Of a DNA stretch of 38,847 nucleotides, positions 2,960 through 18,023 are shown one piece after another (position 1 is the stretch's first letter; every line of letters starts with the position of its first letter). The position numbers and the translations under genes were made by a program. The DNA lies in the IMG/VR virus record IMGVR_UViG_3300021437_000008, positions 1-38,847 of that record, one strand, 5' to 3'. This DNA comes from a virus. Under the pieces are notes generated by a model that made no database searches, had not been told where the DNA came from, and was given only the letters and a program-made list of their open reading frames with translations.

Positions 2960-3808
2960 TTACCTGTTCAGAATGATGAGTGTTACGTTTACGTCCGCGA
3001 AGTCTTGACTATCGCCTGTGTCGTTTCTTGCGCTTATGTGGTAACTGTTTGTTGACGTGGAGTAGAATCCAGTCCATGAGAAATTTGAGAGACCGCCTGT
3101 TGATGACAGATGATACATCACAAATGCGCTTCCGGTGTTTATCCCACTGTCATAGTCGTAGGTTGATGTTGACATTTGCGCCGGTATTGTAAACTGCAAC
3201 GTGTCCGAGAGGCGCAACGCCCCCGCAACCACCGTATCGGGGGTGATGATGTTTCCATGTATTGCGCGAATCGCATCAAAATATTCTCCATCACCATCTA
3301 TCAAGACGCCGGCAGACAATGTGCTGTTATGGTGTCCAGCCCCGCCAAGGTATATATCTAAACCGTTCATCAGTTGTCCGGTGCCTTGAAGGTAGGAACC
3401 ATATCCTATCATGTAGTAGCAGAATTGACCAGTCGAAGCAGCGGTATCACCCTGCGTAGTCATATCGGTCTCTACTCCTATCATTGGGTTCGATTCCATA
3501 ATGCTATCTATCAGGAACCGCACACCTCTTTGTGGGTCGATGGAGTTGATAGTGAGAGGGCTTCTTATCCCGCGATCATAAATATCCAAAGCATAGATAT
3601 TGTCGAATCTTGGAAGAGCTGTATCTATCGCAACGATTTGGAGTAGTTTCTGTACGCTTTCGTTTGAATCTGTTTGTGTCTGGGATAGCGTTAATCGTTT
3701 CAGAGATAATGAGTCTGGGATACTACCCCCAGATGTATGCGGGAAGTATTGCCCAAATCCAAGCGATGAAACGAGAAGTATTGCAATAACAAGAAACGTG
3801 AATCGCAT
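2960..3808 (-). CDS. Secreted fibre/appendage-like protein
   Basis: 282 residues from the ATG at 3808, chosen because it follows the upstream stop (3810) by one base and starts a clear signal peptide: MRFTF, hydrophobic core, then SLGFGQ with likely cleavage near residue 20. The mature part is rich in Ser, Thr, Gly, Asp and Ile, looks all-beta, and ends in a strand-rich tail (NVTLIILNR) like phage appendage proteins. I recognise no domain. It lies inside the head operon, directly after another secreted protein. A Sec signal on a late phage gene is unexpected, because virions assemble in the cytoplasm; it could act at the cell surface or periplasm. Confidence 0.6.
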   Translation of the reverse strand: MRFTFLVIAILLVSSLGFGQYFPHTSGGSIPDSLSLKRLTLSQTQTDSNESVQKLLQIVAIDTALPRFDNIYALDIYDRGIRSPLTINSIDPQRGVRFLIDSIMESNPMIGVETDMTTQGDTAASTGQFCYYMIGYGSYLQGTGQLMNGLDIYLGGAGHHNSTLSAGVLIDGDGEYFDAIRAIHGNIITPDTVVAGALRLSDTLQFTIPAQMSTSTYDYDSGINTGSAFVMYHLSSTGGLSNFSWTGFYSTSTNSYHISARNDTGDSQDFADVNVTLIILNR

Positions 3809-3809
3809 A

Positions 3810-4220
3810 TCAGTACACCTCAATGGTGGCCTTGAAACTTGTGGATGATTTAACGATTACCCGCTTGATAAATGCCTGTGGGAATGTTATCAACTGAGTA
3901 GCTCCGGCGATAACGATAATCGGGTAGTTTGCTGTTGCTACGTTGCCATTGTAAAGCGTCTGAGACAGGGAAACGAAAACAGTATCGCCCGTTGTCCCGC
4001 CGTTGATAATCTGTAGGTTTCGTCCGTACCCCGCCGCAGTGAGTGTGTCAATCGTTCCAGAGGCCATTGAGAGGTTCCAACCCGACACAAAGGCCGTAAC
4101 GGTAGTCGTGAATCCGTCAAACGTGGTTGCGAGAGTGTCTGTCTTGGCTGTCGGGGTTGCCGCCTGAGTGAAACCGGACAGGCAGAGAAGTAAAAACAGG
4201 GAAATAATCAGGCGTTTCAT
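3810..4220 (-). CDS. Small secreted beta-rich protein
   Basis: 136 residues. Its ATG overlaps the portal stop in an ATGA junction. The N-terminus is a classic Sec signal: MKRL, a Leu-rich core, then GFTQA with cleavage near residue 20-21. The mature 115 residues are Thr, Val, Gly and Ala rich and look like a single beta sandwich, with strands such as TVFVSLSQTLY and IKRVIVKSSTSFKATIEVY. No family recognised. It is translationally coupled to the portal and to the next secreted protein, so it is probably made late with the head proteins. Confidence 0.6.
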   Translation of the reverse strand: MKRLIISLFLLLCLSGFTQAATPTAKTDTLATTFDGFTTTVTAFVSGWNLSMASGTIDTLTAAGYGRNLQIINGGTTGDTVFVSLSQTLYNGNVATANYPIIVIAGATQLITFPQAFIKRVIVKSSTSFKATIEVY

Positions 4221-5629: not shown

Positions 5630-5674
5630 GTGCATTGATGCTACTCGCGGTGAATCTACGTTGAAACTTATGTG

Positions 5675-5842
5675 CTACTGACGATTGATCTTCACATCGT
5701 CAAAAGGCGGACGCGGCTTGAATGTTTCTTCCGTTGTCCAACCTGTTACCTTACCACCTTTGAACTCCACAGAGACAGACCCGTAAAATCCGCGCCGCTC
5801 AAGTTCTTTAAGGGCGCTTATGTATTGGTCTAACTCACTCAA
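5675..5842 (-). CDS. Small hypothetical protein, DUF2292-like
   Basis: 55 residues starting at TTG (5840-5842), M/L-SELDQYISAL at the start, then GFYGSVSVEFKGGKVTGW and TFKPRPPFDDVKI. The pattern of a helix followed by a strand-turn-strand ending in a basic tail resembles small DUF2292-type proteins of unknown function. It fills most of the 259-base space between the gene at 5895 and the terminator. The TTG start has no clear ribosome site; the reading frame has a stop ten codons upstream and no better start, so the exact N-terminus is uncertain. Confidence 0.5.
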   Translation of the reverse strand: MSELDQYISALKELERRGFYGSVSVEFKGGKVTGWTTEETFKPRPPFDDVKINRQ

Positions 5843-5894
5843 AGGAAATATACCGATATGTGGTTAAAGAAGCAAGTAGCTTGGCGAAATATTT
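5843..5894 (-). promoter_or_regulatory. Weak candidate promoter TTGCTT-17-TATATT
   Basis: On the minus strand the spacer between the gene at 5895 and the small gene at 5675 holds TTGCTT, 17 bases, and TATATT (5847-5852). The -10 matches 5 of 6 consensus bases, the -35 only 3 of 6. It would start transcription just before the terminator and the late operon. Much weaker than the promoter at 26045-26073. Confidence 0.25.
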
Positions 5895-10512: not shown

Positions 10513-10860
10513 TTACTGCTTGGTCGAACGTGCCATTTTCTCAAGCTGCTCGTCCGAAAGTCCGGTCACGTTGATTTCAAAAGGCTTGTCGTCCGCGTTC
10601 CCTACGGGCTGAACCGCTTTCCCAAAACGGTATTCGATCAATATCCGTGCGGCTGCGGGGTCTGGCTTCTCCGTGTAAACCCTTGTCCCGCCTTGAGAAT
10701 CCATCTTTTGGACTTCTACGCCTTGAGCAAGTTCGTACAGCTTCCCCGCAACAACTTCAAAATCCACGACACGGTCAAGGATTTCCTTAATTTGCAATCC
10801 AGCCTTGTTCGGCTTTCCTTTTCTTGAACCACCTCCGGTTTTTACGCCATTTCGCGCCAT
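10513..10860 (-). CDS. Possible small terminase subunit / DNA-binding protein
   Basis: 115 residues. The N-terminus MARNGVKTGGGSRKGKPNKA is basic and glycine-rich, like the start of some phage small terminase or packaging proteins; the middle is helical (IKEILDRVVDFEVVAGKLYEL) and residues 75-95 (DPAAARILIEYRFGKAVQ) resemble segments in such proteins. It is about 3 kb upstream of the large terminase, and no better small subunit is visible, so this is a candidate only. Its first codons are almost repeated at the 31-residue frame at 15259. Confidence 0.4.
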   Translation of the reverse strand: MARNGVKTGGGSRKGKPNKAGLQIKEILDRVVDFEVVAGKLYELAQGVEVQKMDSQGGTRVYTEKPDPAAARILIEYRFGKAVQPVGNADDKPFEINVTGLSDEQLEKMARSTKQ

Positions 10861-11078
10861 TATCGCACCTTTTCGCAGTTTGCCAAAACTGGGCTATTTA
10901 TACCCCATTGCGCTCTTTTGCGTTTCAGTGCGTCCGCAACGGATTCGCCCGTTTTCAACGTGAATGTCGATCCTGTTACCGGGTCGGTGAATAGGGGCAT
11001 ATCGGGATGGTCTCGAAAGCCTTTCTGGATTCCTTCGTAACGGATTCCCAACGTCTTGGCTGTTTCAGCGTGGTTCAT
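10860..11078 (-). CDS. Small helix-turn-helix-like hypothetical protein
   Basis: 72 residues. The start, HAETAKTLGIRYEGIQKGFRDHP, looks like a short DNA-binding helix pair followed by TGSTFTLKTGESVADALKRKRAQW. It abuts the next gene with one base shared (TAATGG). A role in packaging or gene control is possible because it is coupled to the candidate small terminase gene. Confidence 0.5.
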   Translation of the reverse strand: MNHAETAKTLGIRYEGIQKGFRDHPDMPLFTDPVTGSTFTLKTGESVADALKRKRAQWGINSPVLANCEKVR

Positions 11079-11335
11079 TCCTGTTCGTCAGATAAAATGC
11101 TTTTTGCCTCTGAAAGAATACGATTCCCTGCCAGTTGCGAATAAGCCCAATGAGCGCAAACCGATACTGATTCTGATTCCGGTGAATTGATGAAATAATA
11201 ATGCACCGAAACGGTTTCTTCTTGCGGGGTGTCCCAAAGCAGTAGAATCCCGTGTTTGCCGGACATGAGCTGTCCACAAATCTTTATCAGCTTTGGGAGG
11301 TTTTTAATCCACGAAATCAATCCGGCTCGGTTCAT
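11075..11335 (-). CDS. Hypothetical protein
   Basis: 86 residues from ATG 11335, chosen because it overlaps the upstream stop in ATGA (a GTG or ATG four codons earlier is also open). Helical start (RAGLISWIKNLPKLIKICGQL) followed by strands (GILLLWDTP, VSVHYYF) and a final helix. This layout recurs among phage proteins of unknown function. Confidence 0.5.
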   Translation of the reverse strand: MNRAGLISWIKNLPKLIKICGQLMSGKHGILLLWDTPQEETVSVHYYFINSPESESVSVCAHWAYSQLAGNRILSEAKSILSDEQE

Positions 11336-11742
11336 AACTTTTCCCACGGTGTCACCGTATCGAAATTCTTATCCCGCCTGTTCGGTGAATTAACTGATTT
11401 TGAGCCTAATTCCGCGAGTGTCAATTCTTTGGCCTTTTTCTTGTTTTTGGCCTTGCGGGTTACTTCCGAGACTTCCTTTGACTCACGGATCGCAGTCGCC
11501 TGCAGGTTCAAAAGGTTGAACTCTGACGAGGTCAATCCTTCGGCGGTCACAGACCCGCTATCGAGCCGGGAAATAAGAGCCGCCACGTCCTCCCGGTTCC
11601 GCTTTTGGGCTTTTAGCGTTTCCAACGCCCTTGACACGAGAATCTGGCGGTAGTTCGGAAACAAATTGACCCCGTCACCCAGGGAGGTAGGCAACGGGGT
11701 CGAGCGAGCGGAGGAACCAGATATTTGCACTTCTGCGGACAT
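11332..11742 (-). CDS. Hypothetical basic helical protein
   Basis: 136 residues from ATG 11742, preceded by AGGTAAG; the longer frame to 11832 overlaps the upstream gene and is less likely. Very Ser, Lys, Arg and Asn rich. A helix (NYRQILVSRALETLKAQKRNREDVAALISRL) is followed by LTSSEFNLLNLQATAIRESKEVSEVTRKAKNKKK written here only as its type: long, basic, coiled. It could be a DNA-binding or small terminase-like protein. No family recognised. Confidence 0.5.
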   Translation of the reverse strand: MSAEVQISGSSARSTPLPTSLGDGVNLFPNYRQILVSRALETLKAQKRNREDVAALISRLDSGSVTAEGLTSSEFNLLNLQATAIRESKEVSEVTRKAKNKKKAKELTLAELGSKSVNSPNRRDKNFDTVTPWEKL

Positions 11743-14937: not shown

Positions 14938-15132
14938 TTACGAAATTGCTTGGATATATTCAACGCCGATCTGTTCGGTCTTTGAACGACCGTCAATATT
15001 CAGAACGACGTAATACTTTCCGACATTCTCTGTTGAACGGCTGATAATTTTTCCATCGCGCCCGTCGAAAATACCGCCCGAAATCTTCACGTTCTGGAAA
15101 GCCTCGAACGATTTGTGTATTCCGTATTCCAT
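14938..15132 (-). CDS. Small protein downstream of the structured RNA leader
   Basis: 64 residues, beta-rich: VKISGGIFDGRDGKIISRS and YYVVLNIDG look like a small SH3/OB-like barrel. The ATG has an AAAGG site nine bases upstream, and 25 bases further up ends the folded region at 15158-15250. If that RNA is a regulatory leader, this and the following genes are its targets. No family recognised. Confidence 0.55.
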   Translation of the reverse strand: MEYGIHKSFEAFQNVKISGGIFDGRDGKIISRSTENVGKYYVVLNIDGRSKTEQIGVEYIQAIS

Positions 15133-15157
15133 GCAACAACCTTTCGTTTAAAAATAG

Positions 15158-15250
15158 TTTAGCCCAAGAAATCCGCTTGCAAACCGACACACCCGCGAGG
15201 GTGTAGCGATAACGGACTAATTGGGCTAAATGTGAGTGTATCGGTTTGCA
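15158..15250 (-). ncRNA. Structured leader RNA: pseudoknot or two-state switch
   Basis: On the minus strand two long helices cross. Stem 1: 15234-15250 with 15178-15194, 17 bp including two G.U pairs. Stem 2: 15221-15230 (TTTAGCCCAA) with 15158-15167 (TTGGGCTAAA), 10 perfect pairs. An alternative nested fold uses stem 2, a 7-bp stem (15212-15218 with 15170-15176) and a hairpin ACACCC-TCGC-GGGTGT (15189-15204), which cannot coexist with stem 1. The G.U pairs exist only in the minus-strand transcript, so the structure is in the sense of the genes. It ends 25 bases before the ATG at 15132. I recognise no known family; it is not a tRNA. Confidence 0.6.
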
Positions 15251-15258
15251 TATACAAG

Positions 15259-15354
15259 TTAATAGGTAGTTTTGAAAAAAGCAAGTGTTTGAACATTAAA
15301 TTTACAGCAACCACAACTGGCCACCTTTGGGGATTTCACGCCATTTCGAGGCAT
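15259..15354 (-). CDS. Possible 31-residue peptide (MPRNGVK start)
   Basis: Starts 1 base from the stop region of zinc protein B (TAATG) and encodes MPRNGVKSPKVASCGCCKFN and onward to a TAA at 15259. The first seven codons nearly repeat those of the gene at 10860 (MARNGVK; the DNA shares CGAAATGGCGT). It could be a tiny gene or the leftover 5' end of a lost copy of that gene. Confidence 0.35.
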   Translation of the reverse strand: MPRNGVKSPKVASCGCCKFNVQTLAFFKTTY

Positions 15355-15650: not shown

Positions 15651-16391
15651 CTACAACGTATCGGGAATATTTTCTTCTGTGATCTCGATTGAGTCGTGCT
15701 CGTTAATCTGGTCTGCTTCCCATGCCATTGAAAACTCTTTGTCCTTGAACATTTCCGCGAGGCCGCTAATCTGGGACAGTCTCAATATTTCATCCGCGTC
15801 CATACCAAGATTATGCGCGATTTTTTCATCGCTCCAATTCCGGCGTTTCAGTTCAATCACGATTTCCGACATACTGTCAATCCGGTGTTTCCCCCTTGCG
15901 CGATTGTGTCGGATTGTTGCCGCGATTCTATCGCCACGATCTTCACGCGCATGATTGATGGTAACCACAGGTAGGTAACCGTGAATACGCTTTCTCACTT
16001 GCTCGGATTCCCTCCCAACCCTGGAGCGGTGGAACCCATCAACAACTTCTCGGATTTCGCCATTGTCAAAAGTTACAATCGGCTGAGTGTATCCATCCTC
16101 AAGAATCGACACCTCAAGAAGTTGCATTTCCGGCGGTGCTACGGAATTGGGATTGTAGTCGTTCGCCTGGACACCTTCCGTCGCAACCCATAGAACACAA
16201 TCAACAGGTTCGTCCTTCATCGGACTTTGTTCGTGCATCGCAAGTTTCAACTGATTCAAAGTCTCAACCTTATCGGCAAGCGACAAGTCTTTCAACATCG
16301 CAAACAGAGACTTCGCTTCTCCAACGATGTAAGAATCCGCCTTGCCCGAATATAATTCTCCCGATAAAGACAACTGTTTGTCCGCGCTCAT
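15651..16391 (-). CDS. ParB-like nuclease-domain protein (IbrB-like)
   Basis: 246 residues from ATG 16391, which overlaps the PP-loop gene stop in ATGA and has AAAGGA nine bases upstream. The ParB/sulfiredoxin fold is seen in YTQPIVTFDNGEIREVVDGFHRSRVGR (GFHRxR as catalytic box), then RIAATIRHNRARGKHR and a helix-turn-helix (WSDEKIAHNLGMDADEILRLSQ) ending GLAEMFKDKEFSMAWE. This ending is typical of the ParB partner of PAPS-reductase-like proteins (E. coli IbrB). With the two genes before it, it forms a three-gene cassette. Role in phage unknown: gene regulation or DNA modification are both possible. Confidence 0.75.
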   Translation of the reverse strand: MSADKQLSLSGELYSGKADSYIVGEAKSLFAMLKDLSLADKVETLNQLKLAMHEQSPMKDEPVDCVLWVATEGVQANDYNPNSVAPPEMQLLEVSILEDGYTQPIVTFDNGEIREVVDGFHRSRVGRESEQVRKRIHGYLPVVTINHAREDRGDRIAATIRHNRARGKHRIDSMSEIVIELKRRNWSDEKIAHNLGMDADEILRLSQISGLAEMFKDKEFSMAWEADQINEHDSIEITEENIPDTL

Positions 16392-17596
16392 ATCGCCCAT
16401 TCCTTTCTACGTTTTTTCATTAATAGTAAATATTTTTGGTATGCTTCGCTTTTGTGCTGAGTAAAACTCAATCCCTTGCACCAATAATCATTACGAAGCA
16501 GTGATTTACAAACACGTCGCCACGATGGAACATTCTTTTTGCTTTCAAGTTCATACGGTGCTTCATCCGGTATTCCATCGGGATAGCCGCGAGTCATCCA
16601 CCATTTGCGGAATACCGCCACCTTGTTCCCGTAATGCTCTTGCGTTGCCGGAGGCATAGAGCTTATCAGAAGCTTTGCGAAGCTCTCCCATGTGTGCCCT
16701 TCGGGTTTGCTTACACGCCGGTACCCGTTGATATTTCCAGACTCTTGAACGTACAATGCCCCGCCATTTGCGCCGTTGACCCGCGCTACGACTCGCGCCC
16801 AGGTCTCAGGCTCGATCAGGTGAAACAACCAAAGACCACGCCGCTGATCGTCGCCGTATGGTTGGCAAATACGCATTTGACTCAAGGTCAATCCGGCCTT
16901 GTGCATCAGGTCGTATAAGCCATTGGAGGGCTTGTTGGGATTCTTGTAGTGATAAATCCAGAGATCGTCAACTTTCCAGTCATAGACCGGATACACATTG
17001 TACACTCCATCCATAACGAGGGTTGTCCATCGCTTATCGGTATGCATCTGTTTTGTTGCCGACGATACCGTTCGATAACGATTTAGGCTTTCATCTGAGC
17101 GAATCCCAACGAAACATGCCACAGGTTCGCCATTACCGTACCACTTCCCAAATAGCGGCACAAACTCTTCGAACTCCATGCCGTCATGGAAGAACGGAAA
17201 TTTCTTTGTATCGGTTATCGCAATCGTGGGAGGCGTTCTGATCCACGACAATTCTTTTTGCTTGTCCCAGCATATCCAATGCGGCTCGTAAACGCTGACA
17301 GCATTTCTAAGATGTATCGGCAGACAGCACCAAAACGGCTCTGTGTTGTTTGCATACATCGAATAGCATTTCAGAATGTGGTCAATTGTGATTTTGTATT
17401 GACCCTCAAGGTCAACAAAGAACACTCCGACTTTACGCTTGCGCTTGATCGCCTCATCCATCACAAGGTGAAGCATGACCGTGCTGTCTTTACCGCCGGA
17501 GAAGCTGACGTATATCTTTTTGAAATTGTCGAACGTCCACGCGATTCTTTCCCGCGCCGCGTCCAACACGTTTTTATCCAAATAGTTTTTTGGCAT
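16388..17596 (-). CDS. PAPS-reductase-like PP-loop protein (DUF3440, IbrA-like)
   Basis: 402 residues from ATG 17596, which follows an AAGGGAG ribosome site; a longer frame to 17728 would overlap the helper gene and is unlikely. The adenylating PP-loop SFSGGKDST lies at about residues 31-39; YPVYDWKVDDLWIY and the DUF3440-like C-terminal region (LYDLMHKAGLTLSQMRICQPYGDDQRRGLWLF; given in two overlapping parts only as a pattern) follow. Such proteins activate a substrate by adenylation, usually for sulfur chemistry. Paired with the ParB-like gene as in E. coli IbrA/IbrB. Relatives (DndC) insert sulfur into DNA, so a DNA or RNA modification role is possible but unproven. Confidence 0.8.
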   Translation of the reverse strand: MPKNYLDKNVLDAARERIAWTFDNFKKIYVSFSGGKDSTVMLHLVMDEAIKRKRKVGVFFVDLEGQYKITIDHILKCYSMYANNTEPFWCCLPIHLRNAVSVYEPHWICWDKQKELSWIRTPPTIAITDTKKFPFFHDGMEFEEFVPLFGKWYGNGEPVACFVGIRSDESLNRYRTVSSATKQMHTDKRWTTLVMDGVYNVYPVYDWKVDDLWIYHYKNPNKPSNGLYDLMHKAGLTLSQMRICQPYGDDQRRGLWLFHLIEPETWARVVARVNGANGGALYVQESGNINGYRRVSKPEGHTWESFAKLLISSMPPATQEHYGNKVAVFRKWWMTRGYPDGIPDEAPYELESKKNVPSWRRVCKSLLRNDYWCKGLSFTQHKSEAYQKYLLLMKKRRKEWAI

Positions 17597-18023
17597 ACTC
17601 CCTTTTCCATTGATTGACATATTTAGCGGAAACGATGTTTGCCGCATCTTGTTTTTGTTCTGAAAGCTCGTGCCATGCAAGGCGTGTAATGTCTTCGGGG
17701 ATTCCATGCGCGATACAAACCGCCGCATGGCCTAACCATGCTATGTGATTGATCGAACTGTTCGTGAAATTCTGTTCGCACGAAATAGGCCAAAGAGTTA
17801 AAGCCTTTTCCATGTGAAACCCAAATGCGTCTGTATCATTCATGAACCTGATTGCGATTTGAAACATTTCATTTCTCAGCTCTCCCGATACCGTTTTCCA
17901 AAGTCCGGCATGGAACTCTTCCCACTTGTCGTGATGATGATAAGCCTGCGGCAATTTCGGGATTCCCTCGCCTTCTACTGCGAGATATTCTTTGTATGAT
18001 CTAATTAGGTTTCTCCTTTGCAC
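17574..18023 (-). CDS. Helper protein of the PP-loop/ParB cassette
   Basis: 149 residues. The C-terminal part (WPISCEQNFTNSSINHIAW, GHAAVCIAHGIPEDITRLAWHELSEQ, ANIVSAKYVNQWK) matches a helical protein often coded beside phage PAPS-reductase-like and ParB-like genes; its biochemical role is unknown. The start is uncertain: the first open start is GTG 18023, but AAAGGAG lies inside this region and points to an ATT codon at 18005, immediately after the upstream stop. Overlaps the PP-loop gene by 23 bases. Confidence 0.6.
   Translation of the reverse strand: MQRRNLIRSYKEYLAVEGEGIPKLPQAYHHHDKWEEFHAGLWKTVSGELRNEMFQIAIRFMNDTDAFGFHMEKALTLWPISCEQNFTNSSINHIAWLGHAAVCIAHGIPEDITRLAWHELSEQKQDAANIVSAKYVNQWKREYAKKLFG

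Follow-up and report, generated by a model that had tools for sequence, protein, structure and literature searches.

A pseudoknotted candidate leader RNA in front of early genes of uncultivated phages

Results

An intergenic element of an IMG/VR virus contig (record IMGVR_UViG_3300021437_000008, whose full stretch of 38,847 nucleotides is called the window below) can fold into a single four-helix pseudoknot and is very probably a real, previously uncatalogued control element. Its pseudoknot structure and its homology to a second element, found in locus L034 of a distantly related phage, are well supported, and a third member in locus L081 is probable. Our preferred reading, which we would call just about probable, is that the element forms the structured 5' leader of the next early gene's mRNA on the minus strand and controls translation initiation. 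We infer that it is transcribed as part of this mRNA. A regulatory RNA, as originally predicted, is the likely kind of element; control of the next gene is read from the anatomy of the loci and is our best guess because strand b' of the structure carries the Shine-Dalgarno sequence in both L034 and L081.

Crossing helices in an intergenic gap of the window

The main genes of the contig (38.8 kb) all lie on the minus strand, which is also the sense strand for every part of the element, with coordinates running downward from 5' to 3' (Table 1). The element sits in a 221-nt gap between a 95-aa open reading frame (ORF) that ends at 15354 and a 64-aa ORF that starts at 15132. This had been described as the longest empty gap of the genome, but the 259 nt at 5636-5894, with no listed ORF of at least 60 aa on either strand, are longer. 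Neither a promoter nor a terminator-like site was found in the gap of the window, and the ATG at 15132 lies 25 nt past the end of the element, with strand b' leaving the Shine-Dalgarno sequence uncovered.

Stem 1 (17 bp with two G.U pairs) and the interleaved stem 2 (10 perfect bp) were confirmed on the minus strand. The helices follow each other in the order a-b-c-d-a'-c'-b', with a crossing both b and c. Ten of the 17 pairs of stem 1 form the core of helix a (15250-15241 with 15187-15178), and this core is compatible with helices b and c and hairpin d, all of which can coexist. A single compact pseudoknot of about 34 pairs in 93 nt, its helices non-overlapping by position, is therefore possible in the window.

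The original prediction saw the hallmark of a switch in these helices, with a second fold excluding stem 1. In such a conditional switch, two folds would exclude each other: the full 17-bp helix a would compete with hairpin d, or a5 would pair with the ribosome site. Two features speak for it: The 7-bp extension of helix a truly excludes d in the window, and in the nested minimum-energy fold the start codon is paired with the a5 flank. However, the clash with d is limited to this extension (15240-15234), that is to 7 of the 17 pairs, and its counterpart is absent in both L034 and L081, while the remaining 10 pairs coexist with d in one structure. For a5 and the ribosome site, 12-50% of shuffles reach an equally good pairing, which is not significant. 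We consider a switch very improbable.

The sense strand folds with a z-score of -4.5 (0 of 200 shuffles are as good) and the antisense strand more poorly (z -3.2). In a scan of the window for crossing helices with a combined length of 22 bp or more, the minus strand yielded this element alone and the plus strand a single G.U-rich match in coding sequence. The G.U pairs had been said to fix the strand of the element, and they do favour the minus strand, albeit as a small sample. With a descriptor of the full architecture, the window scores 95 against a peak of 80.5 in shuffled sequence (six dinucleotide shuffles of 743 kb, about 4.5 Mb). A search of Rfam 15 returned no family at gathering threshold, only sub-threshold matches to miRNA hairpins and unrelated families. 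Because of this lack of an Rfam match and because L034 keeps all helices by compensatory changes (see below), we find support for a new structured RNA candidate on the minus strand. Functionless inverted repeats, arisen by chance or left as a relic, would agree with the small number of members, but the architecture is absent from the approximately 4.5 Mb of shuffled sequence and, at this score, from other loci; together with the compensatory changes in L034, this leaves such an origin extremely improbable.

A 30-codon open frame (15251-15159, minus strand) begins with an ATG where helix a forms its first pair and stops within b', with no Shine-Dalgarno sequence visible before it; neither this frame nor an open frame in L034 (3865) has a clear ribosome site.

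Table 1. Positions of the element, its parts and its neighbours in the window and in the two other loci
Feature	Position	Strand	Sequence	Remarks
Leader 5' flank	15251-15353	minus		noncoding, after the 95-aa ORF; 25-nt stretch 76% identical to L034 flank (E 0.22, weak)
Stem 1	15250-15234 with 15194-15178	minus	UGCAAACCGAUACACUC with GGGUGUGUCGGUUUGCA	17 bp, two G.U
Helix a core, 5' strand	15241-15250	minus	UGCAAACCGA	conserved; L034 counterpart GGAAACGGA with two compensated changes
Helix a extension	15234-15240 with 15194-15188	minus	UACACUC	7 bp, window only; excludes hairpin d
Helix b (stem 2), 5' strand	15221-15230	minus	UUUAGCCCAA	10 perfect bp
Helix c, 5' strand	15211-15218	minus	AGUCCG(UU)	6-8 bp with 15177-15170
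Hairpin d	15189-15204	minus	ACACCC-UCGC-GGGUGU	6 bp, tetraloop
Helix a, 3' strand	15178-15187	minus	UCGGUUUGCA	pairs with 15250-15241, forming the pseudoknot
Helix c, 3' strand	15170-15177	minus	(AG)CGGAUU
Helix b, 3' strand (b')	15158-15167	minus	UUGGGCUAAA	pairs with 15230-15221
Shine-Dalgarno-like site	15140-15145	minus	GAAAGG	12 nt after helix b, 7 nt before ATG
Downstream gene (64 aa)	14938-15132	minus		weak match to C-terminal KOW domain of NusG-like antiterminators
L034 element	3909-4030	coding		same helices in same order as window
L081 element	11149-11262			same layout as window and L034

A homologue with compensatory changes

Relatives of the window were gathered via the neighbouring DUF3440/ParB-like (IbrA/IbrB-like) gene pair, which gave 41 loci, chosen for their shared neighbour genes. 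In the window, the adjacent ParB-like and DUF3440/PAPS-reductase-like genes of this IbrB/IbrA pair occupy 15651-17728 (minus strand), and a 149-aa gene often stands beside the pair in relatives.

A search of the 41 loci for crossing helices returned one strong case, L034, whose element reads, in order, GGAAACGGA, a 24-bp stem with GUUAGGCUCUG, UCGCCG, CACAGCUCUGUG, UCCGUUUCC, CGGCGA and CAGAGCCUAAC. Compensatory changes in relatives had been proposed as a check of the predicted RNA, and L034 shows them: When aligned with the window in structural register, 16 of 29 comparable pairs are identical, 13 are double changes and none is broken. In addition, 12 of 14 bases of the d-a' segment are identical between the two elements, as reached by 6 of 3000 shuffles. 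We take the L034 element as a homologue of the window element on these grounds; covariation between two sequences is suggestive rather than statistical.

The L034 element lies directly upstream of a replication-initiator gene (gene 4032) on the same strand. Its b stem reaches to 1-2 nt from the ATG, and the Shine-Dalgarno sequence AAGGG lies within b'. Upstream there is a sigma-70-like promoter (TTGATT-17-TATAAT, 10 of 12 consensus bases), and no terminator-like site follows the element. Between the promoter-like site and the pseudoknot (3783-3908), a three-hairpin multi-branch domain is predicted, and the full L034 leader RNA may therefore be about 250 nt long.

A probable third member

When the rest of the relatives' records was fetched, a third case of the layout came up in L081, with an identical copy in a second contig and no clear sequence similarity to the elements of the window or L034. 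It precedes a GIY-YIG-like ORF on the same strand, identified by sequence motif with no Pfam match, and a replication-initiator gene follows one gene further. The Shine-Dalgarno sequence AGGAGG lies inside b', the gene starts with TTG at 11268, and a sigma-70-like promoter (TTGACA-17-TATACT, 11 of 12 consensus bases) is found upstream. The promoter-like sites of L034 and L081 are about 70-130 nt upstream of the element. As an aside, an unannotated relative of the GIY-YIG-like protein is encoded between annotated genes of Bradyrhizobium phage BDU-MI-1 (L097 5001-5246, KY940711.1 13934-14179).

A stricter descriptor scores L081 at 87.5 and both the window and L034 at 81. The next best hit in the fetched phage loci is a low-complexity repeat at 73; other phage and bacterial loci, 1.45 Mb in all, reach 72.5 and further sets at most 68.5. 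Covariance models cannot hold a pseudoknot, and automatic alignment of two or three members of differing lengths was poor. By sequence and layout, membership stands at two firm cases and one probable one.

Candidate roles of the element

All three elements lie between genes, immediately before a gene of the same strand, yet the genes that follow differ (KOW-like in the window, replication initiator in L034, GIY-YIG-like in L081), so that no single autoregulating protein fits all three. The 64-aa protein of the window weakly matches phrog_6386, a family of NusG-like phage antiterminators (E 4.6e-4, positions 122-177 of 179), and its match to Pfam KOW (E 0.08) is under the cut-off. Its structure model is all-beta at low confidence (pLDDT 54), with non-significant fold matches that include NusG C-terminal domains. 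The protein stands alone, its likeness confined to the C-terminal KOW domain of NusG, and searches for its relatives in viral contigs and known phages found none; a search for relatives of the portal protein likewise returned none.

These differing neighbours, none with a sequence-specific tie to the element, would also suit an independent noncoding transcript, either a small RNA or a scaffold of the phage, with its own promoter, whose 3' end abuts the next gene by chance. What precedes the pseudoknot in L034 and L081, namely promoter-like sites and additional hairpins, points the same way. Nevertheless, no terminator-like site follows the element in the window or in L034, b' overlaps the Shine-Dalgarno sequence in two of the three cases, and no promoter is seen in the window, so that we regard a free-standing RNA as rather unlikely.

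Alternatively, the element might act in cis on transcription as an antitermination or RNA polymerase-pausing element, by analogy with the put RNAs of phage HK022. It would be a structured RNA of an early operon that lies a short way behind a promoter in two relatives, and in the window the downstream protein weakly resembles a NusG C-terminal domain. What the elements consistently abut, however, are ribosome sites and not terminators, and the window gap is free of terminator-like sites; a role of this kind therefore seems quite improbable.

A DNA element such as an origin, priming or packaging site could work through a folded single strand, and interleaved inverted repeats can serve DNA-binding proteins; the positions before replication-initiator genes in L034 (directly) and L081 (one gene before) would suit such a site. 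Against this stand wobble pairs inside the helices on the coding strand, which become A.C mismatches on the other strand, the better folding of the sense strand, the adjacent Shine-Dalgarno sequences and the next gene of the window, which is not a replication gene. To a DNA element we assign a similarly low probability.

For a leader that controls translation, the linker between helices a and b is of interest: A span of 18-30 stacked pairs has to be bridged by 10 nt in the window, 9 nt in L034 and 5 nt in L081. A rough A-form estimate suggests that the window linker can do so easily, that the L034 linker is a borderline case and that the L081 linker cannot unless b opens at its base. This base holds the Shine-Dalgarno sequence in both L034 and L081, so that formation of helix a there would work against hiding of the ribosome site. 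In these two loci, the b/c hairpin would hide the ribosome site; helix a, reaching across b and c on a linker of 5-10 nt, would strain or open the base of b and thereby expose it. In an alternative step, a protein recognising the pseudoknot would lock the leader. In the window, the knot might exert steric hindrance or offer a protein a landing site beside an unstructured, A/U-rich ribosome site. Taken to its full extent, this would amount to a new family of phage leader RNAs common to unrelated early genes in which a long-range pseudoknot helix, stretched over a short linker, mechanically levers the hairpin covering the ribosome site, an idea that we put forward tentatively and consider unlikely to hold in its entirety.

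Comparison with known RNAs

HDV-like self-cleaving ribozymes resemble the element in their nested pseudoknot, made by a 5' strand that pairs within a longer hairpin, and their helices follow the order P1-P2-P3-P3'-P1'-P4-P2' with a catalytic C joint. The element differs by its extra helix c and an 8-nt joint before hairpin d, and we rejected this assignment because the helix order differs, no P4-like helix or recognisable catalytic C joint is present and Rfam gives no match. A riboswitch would bind a small molecule and thereby change its fold; no conserved aptamer-like core is visible with two or three sequences.

In the repZ/repA leaders of plasmids, a stem holds the ribosome site of a replication-initiator gene, and control by a pseudoknot involves an antisense RNA and a long-range loop contact along with translation of a leader peptide. 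L034 resembles them in having a putative leader pseudoknot before a replication-initiator gene and a ribosome site predicted to lie in a stem; the Shine-Dalgarno sequence falls within b' in L034 and L081 and outside b' in the window. No sequence or Rfam relation was found between the element and these leaders, of which the pseudoknots of IncI-alpha, IncB and IncL/M plasmids are cited in PMC10724649.

In the gene 32 translational operator of phages T4 and RB69, a pseudoknot precedes a ribosome site that is A/U-rich and unstructured, within an early mRNA (PMC535899). The window likewise has a pseudoknot upstream of its ribosome site, followed by CUAUUUUUAAACGAAAGG, an A/U-rich and probably unstructured stretch, and in design it seems closer to this operator. 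In contrast, the T4 knot of about 28 nt compares with about 93 nt and four helices in the window, the T4 gene encodes a single-strand DNA-binding protein whereas the window gene is KOW-like and not Ssb, and L034 and L081 bury the Shine-Dalgarno sequence. Of the UUAAA-type repeats that mark the T4 operator, the window has one UUUUUAAAC before GAAAGG, and L034 and L081 have no such stretch. Pseudoknotted translational operators of phages are known from a few model cases, to which a candidate family from uncultivated phages would add, with covariation support, a precise helix map and a location upstream of replication genes and of a gene whose product may be a transcription factor.

Among structured RNAs from comparative genomics, manA and wcaG are motifs that phages carry, with manA often sitting in potential 5' UTRs, and the STAXI motif is a pseudoknot found close to genes that encode DNA-binding and antirestriction proteins (PMC2864571). 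STAXI consists of repeated pseudoknots, unlike the single four-helix pseudoknot of the window, and the element has no Rfam match to any of the three.

Distribution beyond the three loci

Most relatives that share the neighbouring genes lack the element, and no further member turned up among loci with replication genes of the L034 type or among loci with ParB/IbrB neighbours. BLASTN against known phages gave only chance matches for the window and L034 elements and no match for that of L081. The only true match of an exact-pattern search in viral contigs was L034's own contig; matches in L043-L046 and L048-L050 are not this element, and those inspected are without such a fold. The helix descriptor can be used for searching larger virus collections.

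Two other repeat-rich regions came to light in these searches. A high-scoring hit in L064 (10816) was rejected as part of a run-of-G repeat array; the region around it (10600-10900), which precedes a phage gene, is densely filled with AACCTTCCTTC repeats and with inverted repeats of C runs and G runs. In L103, from a Bacillota MAG, two long inverted repeats overlap at 11550 (minus strand) around TAAAAAGTATGCACACCCC...GGGTGCATACTTTTTA...GGGTGTGCA.
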